Shown here: positions 10,096-41,803 of the stretch, in pieces | Numbering within the stretch: the first letter of the stretch is position 1 | How the letters are laid out: each line of letters begins with the position of its first letter | Origin: an uncultured Rhodopila sp. | GTDB lineage: Bacteria > Pseudomonadota > Alphaproteobacteria > Acetobacterales > Acetobacteraceae | Direction of reading: 5' to 3' | Assembly (NCBI GenBank): GCA_903851415.1 | Contig: CAINOE010000049.1 | Coordinates: 168,551 to 232,550 of the forward strand | Length of the DNA: 64,000 nt | Translations under genes and position numbers: made by a program | Notes under the pieces: model-generated | What the model was told of the DNA's origin: nothing | Seen by the model: the letters and a program-made list of their open reading frames with translations, nothing else | Database searches by the model: none

Positions 10096-10746
10096 GTGGT
10101 CGTTCCTTGTTGGACCGTCACTCACTTAATCGCCACGTCCGCGGCGCGGGTGGCCGCCCACACCGCCAAAGCCGTGCTTCCGCACGTCCACAGGCATCTC
10201 GTGCACCGGGTGCACCACACCTTCCATGCCGTAACGACCCATCCGGGCGTCTGGCTGGAAACAGTCTGCCGCGCCGCGCCGCTGGCAGTCGCCTCCGCCA
10301 TGCTTGCGGTCCCGGTCACCGCTCCGATTCCCGTTTCGAGTCCAGTTGAAGCGGCACCGCCAATCAGCGTGCAGCCTGCCGTTGATTCGCCGAAGCCACT
10401 GAGCTATGCGGCGCTTCCCGTAACGCAGCCGATACTGTTTGGTTATCCTCCAATAACGGCATCCGCAGCCCCGGGCGCTGTTGGCGCGCCCGCGGCCGGA
10501 TCGACGCTCGTTACCCTGCCGCAGAACGAGGCGCCGCCGGCGCCGACGGCCGAGCAAATACTCGCGCCCTACGTGGCGGCGCCGCGGCGCTTGTCCGTTG
10601 GCGGTCCGTCCGGCCTCGGAACGCCGGGGGGCGTTACACAGACGCAACCGTCCGGCATCCCGGTCCCCGAGCCGTCATCGCTGCTCATGCTGGCACCGGT
10701 GGTGGCGGCCCTCGGCCTGTTGCGGCAGCGAAGACGCCGCGCCTAA
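10096..10746 (+). CDS. PEP-CTERM sorting domain-containing protein
   Basis: GTG start after AAGGAG; C-terminus [29 protein letters not shown] = PEP motif + hydrophobic helix + Arg cluster. Confidence 0.85.
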
Positions 10747-38864: not shown

Positions 38865-40085
38865 TCATCGTCCCGTCATGATCCGGCCGCCGATGGAGGC
38901 CGCCCTGCGCCGCAGCCGGCCGCGCCCGAACCACGCCAGCACGAACAGCCCGAGCGGGCTGGAACCCGGCAGCGGCAACGGCGCCGGCGACAGCGGCCCC
39001 GCCGAGGCCGCCAACGAGGAGACCTGCGACGACCCGGACACCGCCGGCAGCGCCCCGCTGAAGGTGACCCCACCGCTGTTCGACAGGTTGAGCTGCGCAT
39101 TGCCGGTCAGGTTCGCCGCGATCAAAGAGCCGGTGACGTTGCCGCCCGTCGTCACCACCGTCGCGTCCGGCGCCAGGATCGACAGGTCGTAGCTGACATT
39201 CGACGACAGCTGCACCGTCGTGGCGGCGGTGCCCATGTTCAGCAGCACGTTGCTGTCGGTCATGCCGCCGGTATAGCCGAAGCTCAGATTGCCCGGCAGC
39301 GCCTCGGTGCCGGAGCCAACCACGTTGATGATGTCGCTCGCCCCGGCGACGGTGCTGGTGAACAGCACCTGGCTGCCCGACATCGCGGCGACCTGAGCGG
39401 CGGTGACGTTGAATATGTTGTCGCCCGCCACCGTGCTGGTGAAGACATAGGCGCCCTGCGCGTTCTTGCCGAACGTGTCCCCCGCCGTCGATGCCATGCC
39501 GGACAGCGCCGTCGACACCGCCGCCGCGTTGGCGGTGACCGCGCCGTAATTGATCGGCGCGGCATAGGCCGTGGCGGCGGTCACCTTGGGCTGCGCGGCA
39601 TTGACGAAGCTGGACGCTCCGCCGACGGCGACGGTCCCGTTCACGCCGGCGCCGGTGAAGCTGGCGCTGCCATCGACGTTGACCGAACCGTTGATCTGCC
39701 CGTTCAGGTAGCGCATGGAGCCGCCGACGTTGACGTTGGACAGCCCGGTGGACGTGGCGGCCAGGTTGCCGCCGACATCCGCCGTCCCGTTGATCGAGCC
39801 GTTGGTCATCGTCAGGTTGCCGCCGACGGCAACCCCGACACCGCTGGCGGTCTCGTTGGTGGAGGCGCCGAAATTCGACAGATAGACGTTGCCCCCCGCC
39901 GCGATCGCGCCCTGGCTGTCGGAGGTGTAGGCGGAGGAGGCGGTGCCGATATCGCCGGACACATAGGTGTTGTAGCCGGCGTCGAGCAGACCTTGCAGGG
40001 TCGTCACCTGCGCGTTGGCGCCGCCGGTTCCGGCGCACCATGCGCCTCCGGCGAGAGCGGTCAGGGTGATCAGCTTGGTGCGCAT
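38865..40085 (-). CDS. Choice-of-anchor-A-type secreted surface protein with C-terminal exosortase-like signal
   Basis: Signal peptide MRTKLITLTALAGGAWCAGTGGANAQ; AGYNTYVSGDIG...GAIAAGGNVYLSNFGA...VAVGGNLTM beta repeats; tail LPLPGSSPLGLFVLAWFGRGRLRRR. Confidence 0.75.
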   Translation of the reverse strand: MRTKLITLTALAGGAWCAGTGGANAQVTTLQGLLDAGYNTYVSGDIGTASSAYTSDSQGAIAAGGNVYLSNFGASTNETASGVGVAVGGNLTMTNGSINGTADVGGNLAATSTGLSNVNVGGSMRYLNGQINGSVNVDGSASFTGAGVNGTVAVGGASSFVNAAQPKVTAATAYAAPINYGAVTANAAAVSTALSGMASTAGDTFGKNAQGAYVFTSTVAGDNIFNVTAAQVAAMSGSQVLFTSTVAGASDIINVVGSGTEALPGNLSFGYTGGMTDSNVLLNMGTAATTVQLSSNVSYDLSILAPDATVVTTGGNVTGSLIAANLTGNAQLNLSNSGGVTFSGALPAVSGSSQVSSLAASAGPLSPAPLPLPGSSPLGLFVLAWFGRGRLRRRAASIGGRIMTGR

Positions 40086-40482
40086 GATGATCGGCTGGCT
40101 CCAAAAGGTGGTGGTGGGATGGTCGTTCGGCCTGGCGGCAGGCCTGGTTGGCCAAAAAACGCAAACGGCATGCCGGAATGGATACGCTGTGAGGCCGCCC
40201 TTTCCGGGCGCCGAAGTCCTGCCAGGCTGTAATAATCTTGAAATGCGATGCAGATTGCGTCTTCGGTGGTGCCGCCGGACGATCCGGCTTCCCGCGGGTC
40301 GCAATTTGCCACGCGGACAGGCCCGCATGCAGCGGTGAGTTCCGACCGCCGCGGCGGCCGGAACGGGCCACGCGGGTGGCACGATACCTGCTCATCCCGG
40401 GTGGCGCCGCAGCGGCGACAGCGTAAAGAACGCCGATAGCCGCCGCGCCCGGCGAGACCAGCAGCCACGGATCGATGAAAGA

Positions 40483-41310
40483 ATGACCGCCCGGTTCATC
40501 CCCACAGCCGCCGCTCCGGCCACCCCCGCCGGCGGCATCCTGCCGGGCCGCCTGACCGTCACCGGCCTGCTGCTCATCGGCGGATGGCTGCATGGCGTTG
40601 CCGCGCGCCTCGCCTGGTCCTGGCGCGACAGCGCGGACAATGATCTGGCGCAGGCGCTCGGCGTCAGCCCGCTGGAACTGATGATCGCCGGCATCGCCGC
40701 TATCGGCTTGTATCGCGGGGCATCGGCGGAACGGCTCGGCCTTCCCGCGCTCGGCTTCGTCCTGCTGCTGCTGGTGCCGAGCAGCCTTGCCGCGCATGGC
40801 TCGCTTGTTCTGTTCGCGCTTTGGGTTGCCGCCGGCACCGCCGGGGAGACCCGTTCCTCCGCACTGCTGTTCGCGGGGCTCGGCGCGTGCGGCCTGTGGA
40901 GCGTGCTTTACGGACAGATTGCCGGCGATTGGCCGCTGCGCGCCGATGCCATCCTGACGCAGGGCCTGCTCCAGGCCGTGCTGCCGGGGGTCGAGCGCGT
41001 GGGCAACGTGCTGGGCATGCCCGGCGGGCACCGGATCATCATCCTGGCGGGTTGCTCCACGGCCTACGGCCTGCCGCTTGTCCTGCTCGGGCTGGCGGCG
41101 CTGTCGCTGCGCGACGGACGCCTGCCGCCGCGCTTCGGGCGGGCGGCTTTGGCGCTGGCGGCAGTGTATACCGCAGCCAACCTGCTGCGCCTGACCTTCC
41201 TCGGCATCTCCGATGACTTCTATCGCATCGGCCATGGCCCGTACGGGGAGATGCTGTTCGACGCGCTGGTGATCGCCCTGCCGCTGGCCATCGCCGGCCG
41301 GACGGTTCCG
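40483..41310 (+). CDS. Exosortase/archaeosortase-family protein (core); reading frame changes near 41300-41315
   Basis: Multi-TM protein with candidate Cys-Arg-His triad: ILAGCSTAYGLPLVLLGLAAL, AANLLRLTFLGI, DDFYRIGHGPYGEMLFDAL. Beyond ~41310 this frame gives Pro/Arg-rich non-coding-like sequence. Confidence 0.7.
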
Positions 41311-41317
41311 GACCTCG

Positions 41318-41803
41318 GTGCTGCTCGGCCTGCTGGTCCTCGGCCTCGGCATCAAAGCGGCGCGGATCGCCGAACCACCGGTGCAACCGCGGGAGGTGCA
41401 GGCCCGGGCCGCGGTCGTGGCGTTCCTCGCGGCCCGGGACTGGCGCCTGGCCGGACGCCAGGGCCTGACTCTGAACGATGCCGACAGCATTCAGTATTTC
41501 TCCCGTCCCGGTTGCCCCGCGGCGCTGGCGGTCGCGGTGGCCGCGCGGGCGCCGGAGACGGCATCGATGCTGCGTCTGGCCCTGGGCGGGGACATGCGCT
41601 GGCTGGAGGGCGGCGTGCTGTACCCGGAGCCGCCGCTGGGCCGCCAGACAGTCAGGGTCACCCTGGCCGCCGCGATCGCCCGGCTGGGCGGCCCGCGGGA
41701 TCGGGTGATGCCGATCCTGGCGATTGCGCCGGCGCCGGGGGGAAGCGGAGCCTGCGCGACGCCCGATGCGGAGGCGTGGAAGACGCTGGCGGCGCTACCG
41801 TGA
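41318..41803 (+). CDS. Probable C-terminal part of the exosortase gene (or overlapping partner ORF)
   Basis: In +1-shifted frame: LLGLLVLGLGIKAARIAEPPVQPREVQARAAVVAFLAARDWRLAGRQGLTLNDADSIQYFSRPGC...; TM then soluble domain, stop 41803. Confidence 0.6.
   Translation: MLLGLLVLGLGIKAARIAEPPVQPREVQARAAVVAFLAARDWRLAGRQGLTLNDADSIQYFSRPGCPAALAVAVAARAPETASMLRLALGGDMRWLEGGVLYPEPPLGRQTVRVTLAAAIARLGGPRDRVMPILAIAPAPGGSGACATPDAEAWKTLAALP

Follow-up and report, generated by a model that had tools for sequence, protein, structure and literature searches.

A probable stand-alone exosortase-type sorting module with a private C-terminal tail in an uncultured Rhodopila

Background

Does a divergent gene pair in an uncultured Rhodopila sp., coding for an exosortase-like membrane enzyme and a choice-of-anchor-A secreted protein, constitute a dedicated surface-sorting system? 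The pair lies in a stretch of 64,000 nucleotides (the window, G000:C49:168551-232550; G000 is the window genome, relatives are labelled by G-numbers and comparison loci by L-numbers). A preliminary description, made from this stretch alone, proposed that the enzyme handles its neighbour. We consider it likely that the locus forms a stand-alone surface-sorting module of the exosortase type with a private tail, and that it has three parts, the third being an accessory protein.

Results

Homologues of the enzyme were sought in 390 relatives with a profile built from a five-sequence enzyme alignment. Ten core homologues, the window's own included, were found at E<1e-40, all in Acetobacteraceae (G000, G008, G010, G036, G047, G194, G198, G236, G254 and G290), and several distant ones besides. 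In G198 a contig end interrupts the locus, which was left out of the pairing count. In each of the nine core genomes that could be assessed, the protein next to the enzyme ends in the same type of tail: the motif P-A-P-L..[A/G]-[A/S]-[S/T]-P-L, then a transmembrane (TM) helix, then an Arg-rich end. The body of the neighbour is of the choice-of-anchor-A type in Rhodopila (a divergent gene beside the enzyme in G000, G008 and G010) and of the Npun_F0296 type in other genera (a gene directly upstream of the enzyme in G036, G047, G194, G236, G254 and G290). The divergent pair is kept in G010 despite flanking genes unlike those of the window. A contig scan gave one close relative only. The enzyme-profile match in G003 was rejected as spurious, since it falls inside an apparent sensor-kinase-like open reading frame (ORF).

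The nine enzyme-neighbour tails were aligned as a tail profile (A2), which was searched over the 390 genomes. Its matches at E<1e-5, eleven in number, are confined to nine genomes, every one with the enzyme. Two of them lie outside the seed alignment. One, in the window genome, is an Npun_F0296 protein encoded on contig C109 without linkage to the enzyme; the other is a G254 protein of the choice-of-anchor-A type, whose gene lies 7.6 kb from that of the enzyme. The probability that both fall by chance in the 10 of 390 genomes is about 7e-4, random placement being assumed. These two tails score about 37 bits, against at most 10.5 for six PEP-CTERM tails. Weak A2 matches (E from 3e-4 to 5e-3) are found in G307, G009, G350, G313, G306 and G050.

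The same protein bodies elsewhere carry the PEP-CTERM end. This is the case for the choice-of-anchor-A proteins distant from the enzyme in G008, G010 and G236, and for the other complete Npun_F0296 proteins in G000, G008 and G254. Among 60 loci of both adhesin families in relatives, the new tail occurs only in four, in genes that adjoin the enzyme; most others are PEP-CTERM. Once the model had been formed, a search of the whole phylum added one strong homologue, in a different bacterial family (G620, E 2e-49). There an overlapping two-cysteine accessory comes after the enzyme, together with a small secreted protein whose end reads APAPLLAS..TM..RRRKRR. The likeness of this tail to A2 is partial (8.6 bits), and therefore tails appear to drift together with their enzymes. 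On these genomic grounds we regard the pairing of enzyme and tagged neighbour as well supported; together with the co-occurrence of the tail, it favours the earlier proposal of a dedicated enzyme. From the pairing we infer that the enzyme cleaves the C-terminal sorting signal.

The proposed substrate has the following features.

38865-40085, minus strand: choice-of-anchor-A secreted protein, the proposed substrate, 406 amino acids, ATG at 40085; TIGR04215 87 bits, PF20597 88 bits
40008-40085, minus strand: N-terminal Sec-type signal peptide, MRTKLITLTALAGGAWCAGTGGANA/QV, cleavage site judged by eye
39084-39977, minus strand: choice-of-anchor-A domain, two TIGR04215 stretches (C49:207634-208527)
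38895-38990, minus strand: candidate C-terminal sorting tail, SPAPLPLPGSSPLGLFVLAWFGRGRLRRRA, with motif, TM helix and Arg cluster (tail profile A2)
40086-40482, no strand: divergent intergenic region common to substrate and enzyme, 397 bp, from the sequence

The score of 87 bits, against a TIGR04215 cut-off of 29, places the protein in the choice-of-anchor-A family, and the secreted neighbour with a TM helix and Arg tail is as previously described. Compared with G008, its gene has a nonsynonymous rate (dN) of 0.071 and a synonymous rate (dS) of 0.343 (dN/dS about 0.21).

One could presume that this protein is processed by ordinary exosortase A, the divergent enzyme being either in decay or an unrelated membrane protein. 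Exosortase A is indeed present in the window genome (294 bits on TIGR03109, cut-off 208), in a cluster that looks like one for extracellular polysaccharide (EPS); both kinds of tail consist of a Pro-containing motif, a TM helix and Arg; and the window enzyme gene is frameshifted. Against this, the 34 TIGR02595 (PEP-CTERM) matches that the genome yields at a limit as loose as E<=10 do not include the window tail, and 28 other proteins score above the cut-off; across genomes the tail is found together with the enzyme; and the enzyme part shows purifying divergence (dN/dS about 0.22 versus G008) with an invariant triad. We find this explanation quite improbable. No tail family scores the window tail above its cut-off, and the window genome has no second copy of the divergent enzyme. 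A classical PEP-CTERM protein lies within the window itself (10096-10746, plus strand, 21 bits on TIGR02595).

The enzyme begins at 40483 on the plus strand, and the divergent arrangement is as first described.

40483 to ~41304, plus strand: divergent exosortase-like membrane enzyme, about 274 amino acids, 7 hydrophobic segments (profiles, alignment, hydropathy)
41053-41055, plus strand: codon of the candidate nucleophile Cys191 (ILAGCST), invariant in 15 homologues
41179-41190, plus strand: N233-x-x-R236 motif (NLLRLTF), invariant in 15 homologues
41233-41247, plus strand: H251-x-x-x-G255 motif (GHGPYG), invariant in 15 homologues

Conservation was assessed in an alignment of 15 enzymes with identity down to 17%, and its sole invariant columns are P99, G174, G182, C191, N233, R236, H251 and G255. 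The Cys, Arg and His that had been picked out beforehand (ILAGCSTAYG, NLLRLTF and GHGPYG; residues 191, 236 and 251) are thus all retained. For EpsH the motifs put forward as catalytic are Cys-x-Gly, N-x-x-R and H-x-x-x-G (PMC1569441). The enzyme has the motifs of the exosortase/archaeosortase superfamily (invariant Cys, N-x-x-R, H-x-x-x-G), and its seven hydrophobic segments predict a polytopic membrane topology. The profile match called for by the preliminary description was obtained for the family and not for the window protein: TIGR04178 (curated cut-off 23 bits) is passed by the homologues in G290 (24.5 bits) and G343 (24.6 bits) and matched at E<=0.1 by 11 of the 15 family members, and hhalign against the exosortase A of the window genome gives E 7e-4, with Cys, N-x-x-R and His all lined up. 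Because of the invariant motifs, the TIGR04178 matches of the family and the hhalign result, membership of the window enzyme in the exosortase superfamily is well supported. It belongs to no named NCBIfam exosortase subtype, XrtA and others, since it scores under the subtype cut-offs. A PDB sequence search with the enzyme gave nothing meaningful.

The third part had escaped the first reading, as had the frame break, the unlinked tailed protein on C109 and the co-existing exosortase A/PEP-CTERM system.

41318-41803, plus strand: accessory domain or protein, one N-terminal TM helix and a soluble domain with two invariant cysteines (A4 alignment)
41290-41312, plus strand: junction of an out-of-frame deletion that splits the enzyme and accessory frames (56 nt versus G008, 59 nt versus G010)

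Cys66 and Cys146 are the only invariant columns in the accessory alignment A4 (11 sequences), which suggests a periplasmic disulfide. The accessory has no Pfam or NCBIfam family, and single members give matches at chance level only; the profile of the EpsI-type accessory (TIGR02914) does not match the window protein, and a PDB sequence search with it gave nothing. It is fused in frame to the enzyme in four relatives (G008, G010, G236 and G254) and is a separate gene, adjoining or overlapping the enzyme, in G036, G047, G194 and G290. Since the deletion is out of frame, the window accessory forms an ORF in a different frame, and 40483-41803 is not a single frame. The interval given earlier for the pair is 38865-41803, and its end point is that of the accessory ORF, not of the enzyme. 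Comparison with G008 and G010 spoke against a continuous enzyme of 465 amino acids, and the idea was rejected: the reading frame is open to 41880, yet the true coding frame shifts near 41300.

Is the window locus then a recently inactivated copy, in which the frameshift abolished function while the module of the relatives works? The deletion is out of frame, and the enzyme frame runs on through about 190 codons of unrelated sequence; yet the break sits in the linker past the last TM segment of the enzyme, and G036, G047, G194, G290 and G620 have separate genes for the enzyme and the accessory, so kin tolerate a split. The accessory half has dN/dS of about 0.27, a value set for the most part before the deletion occurred. 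The frameshift could also be an assembly or sequencing error. We hold inactivation to be somewhat unlikely, though deserving of more weight than the other two alternatives considered in this report. The deletion point, which may be a real mutation or an assembly error, is flanked by GC-rich short repeats.

As first described, the usual EPS genes are absent next to the enzyme; the neighbours examined are cytochrome bd, SOUL haem-binding, ferritin-like and SulP genes. Absence of acceptor-synthesis genes beside the enzyme in the window would agree with an intramembrane protease that merely releases the adhesin, with no transfer to an acceptor. On the other hand, models of archaeosortase and exosortase systems cast them as transpeptidases (PMC1569441, PMC9263693), and the gene of the tailed C109 protein (L163:4987-5844) sits between a group-1 glycosyltransferase gene and one that is weakly Wzz/GNVR-like, a setting that hints at a polysaccharide acceptor. 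Simple release is, in our opinion, unlikely.

Two further groups of loci were noticed. Upstream of the module, G047, G194 and G290 code for an unnamed secreted protein that is about 170 amino acids long and has two conserved cysteines; in G236 its gene is divergent (L011:6703-7203, L035:7361-7912, L039:6925-7473 and L036:4200-4715). The protein is absent from the remaining core genomes and from five further genomes searched. Distant exosortase-like enzymes are found at L040, L041, L042, L043, L044, L182 and L183. Most of them adjoin secreted peptides of 75-130 amino acids with TM and Arg tails, those of L042 and L183 sharing P-G-P-[L/I]-x-G-x-G-L-P; no tailed secreted peptide was identified beside the enzyme at L040 and L182. 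These loci may belong to a broader set of systems, each with one enzyme and one peptide.

Discussion

We propose that the choice-of-anchor-A protein would be exported via Sec, and that its C-terminal TM helix and the Arg cluster would hold it in the inner membrane. The divergent exosortase would read the tail motif ahead of the helix and cut there through Cys191 with Arg236 and His251, a role to which their invariance points. The adhesin would then be transferred to a surface acceptor, which may be a polysaccharide or a lipid, and the two-cysteine accessory may help in the manner suggested for EpsI and for other exosortase-system-associated proteins. The tail would separate the substrates of the module from the PEP-CTERM/exosortase A system of the genome. 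The frameshifting deletion appears to have split the fusion of enzyme and accessory in the window strain, with the catalytic part left complete.

Several observations weigh against a functional module of this kind. The window enzyme is under every curated exosortase cut-off (14.8-18.4 bits on TIGR04178), and Cys-Ser-Thr replaces the Cys-x-Gly of EpsH, so that the Gly is absent. The core enzyme is uncommon, being present in about 10 of 390 relatives, and the frameshift in the window copy may indicate decay. Nine of the eleven strong A2 matches are seed sequences, and therefore just two are independent. Structure prediction gave no fold support: AlphaFold confidence is low both for the enzyme-accessory fusion modelled from 3 sequences (predicted local distance difference test, pLDDT, 39; predicted template modelling score, pTM, 0.26) and for the accessory (pLDDT 55, pTM 0.51).

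The three-part module resembles known systems in each of its parts. As in exosortase A (XrtA/EpsH, TIGR03109), the enzyme is polytopic with Cys, N-x-x-R and H-x-x-x-G; as in PEP-CTERM proteins, the substrate ends in a Pro motif, a TM helix and an Arg cluster; and as in the EpsI system, an accessory domain is fused to the enzyme or adjoins it. The substrate bodies belong to the choice-of-anchor-A (TIGR04215/PF20597) and Npun_F0296 (NF050191) families. The differences are equally clear. Similarity to exosortase A is at the profile level only, with the altered Cys motif; the tail lacks PEP and the accessory has no EpsI match; the locus lies outside an EPS cluster and has one or two substrates, not dozens; and the enzyme-adjacent adhesins carry the new tail, unlike most other members of their families in relatives. 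The best sub-threshold matches of individual enzymes are to exosortases R, S and P and cyanoexosortases A and C (NF012138, NF033767, NF012139, TIGR03763, NF033464), all far under the curated cut-offs.

By gene arrangement the locus is also like XrtF with the exosortase F system-associated protein of Flavobacterium johnsoniae, a variant exosortase with an adjacent partner (PMC10936215). XrtF and its partner are both required for colonisation and biofilm formation, and the XrtF substrates were left to future work (PMC10936215); EpsI has no known function (PMC1569441). Literature searches on exosortases with choice-of-anchor proteins or in Acetobacteraceae, which did not cover the 2012 exosortase survey, turned up no account of this system. 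PEP-CTERM/EpsH with EpsI (PMC1569441) and XrtF with its partner (PMC10936215) are known; what is new is an enzyme outside the named subtypes, a tail outside the named models tested and an accessory outside EpsI.

Conclusions

The determinants of exosortase specificity and the roles of accessories have been little tested. The same protein bodies with PEP-CTERM or the new tail, in one genome with two divergent enzymes, amount to a natural tail-swap experiment, and with one or two substrates only the module is small enough for reconstitution. The locus defines a sorting signal and an accessory family unnamed by the annotation models tested. We suggest tentatively, at somewhat less than even confidence, that two orthogonal exosortase systems in one cell may put the same adhesin families on different surface acceptors, that the address would be the acquired C-terminal tail alone, and that the new system would need its own disulfide-bearing accessory.
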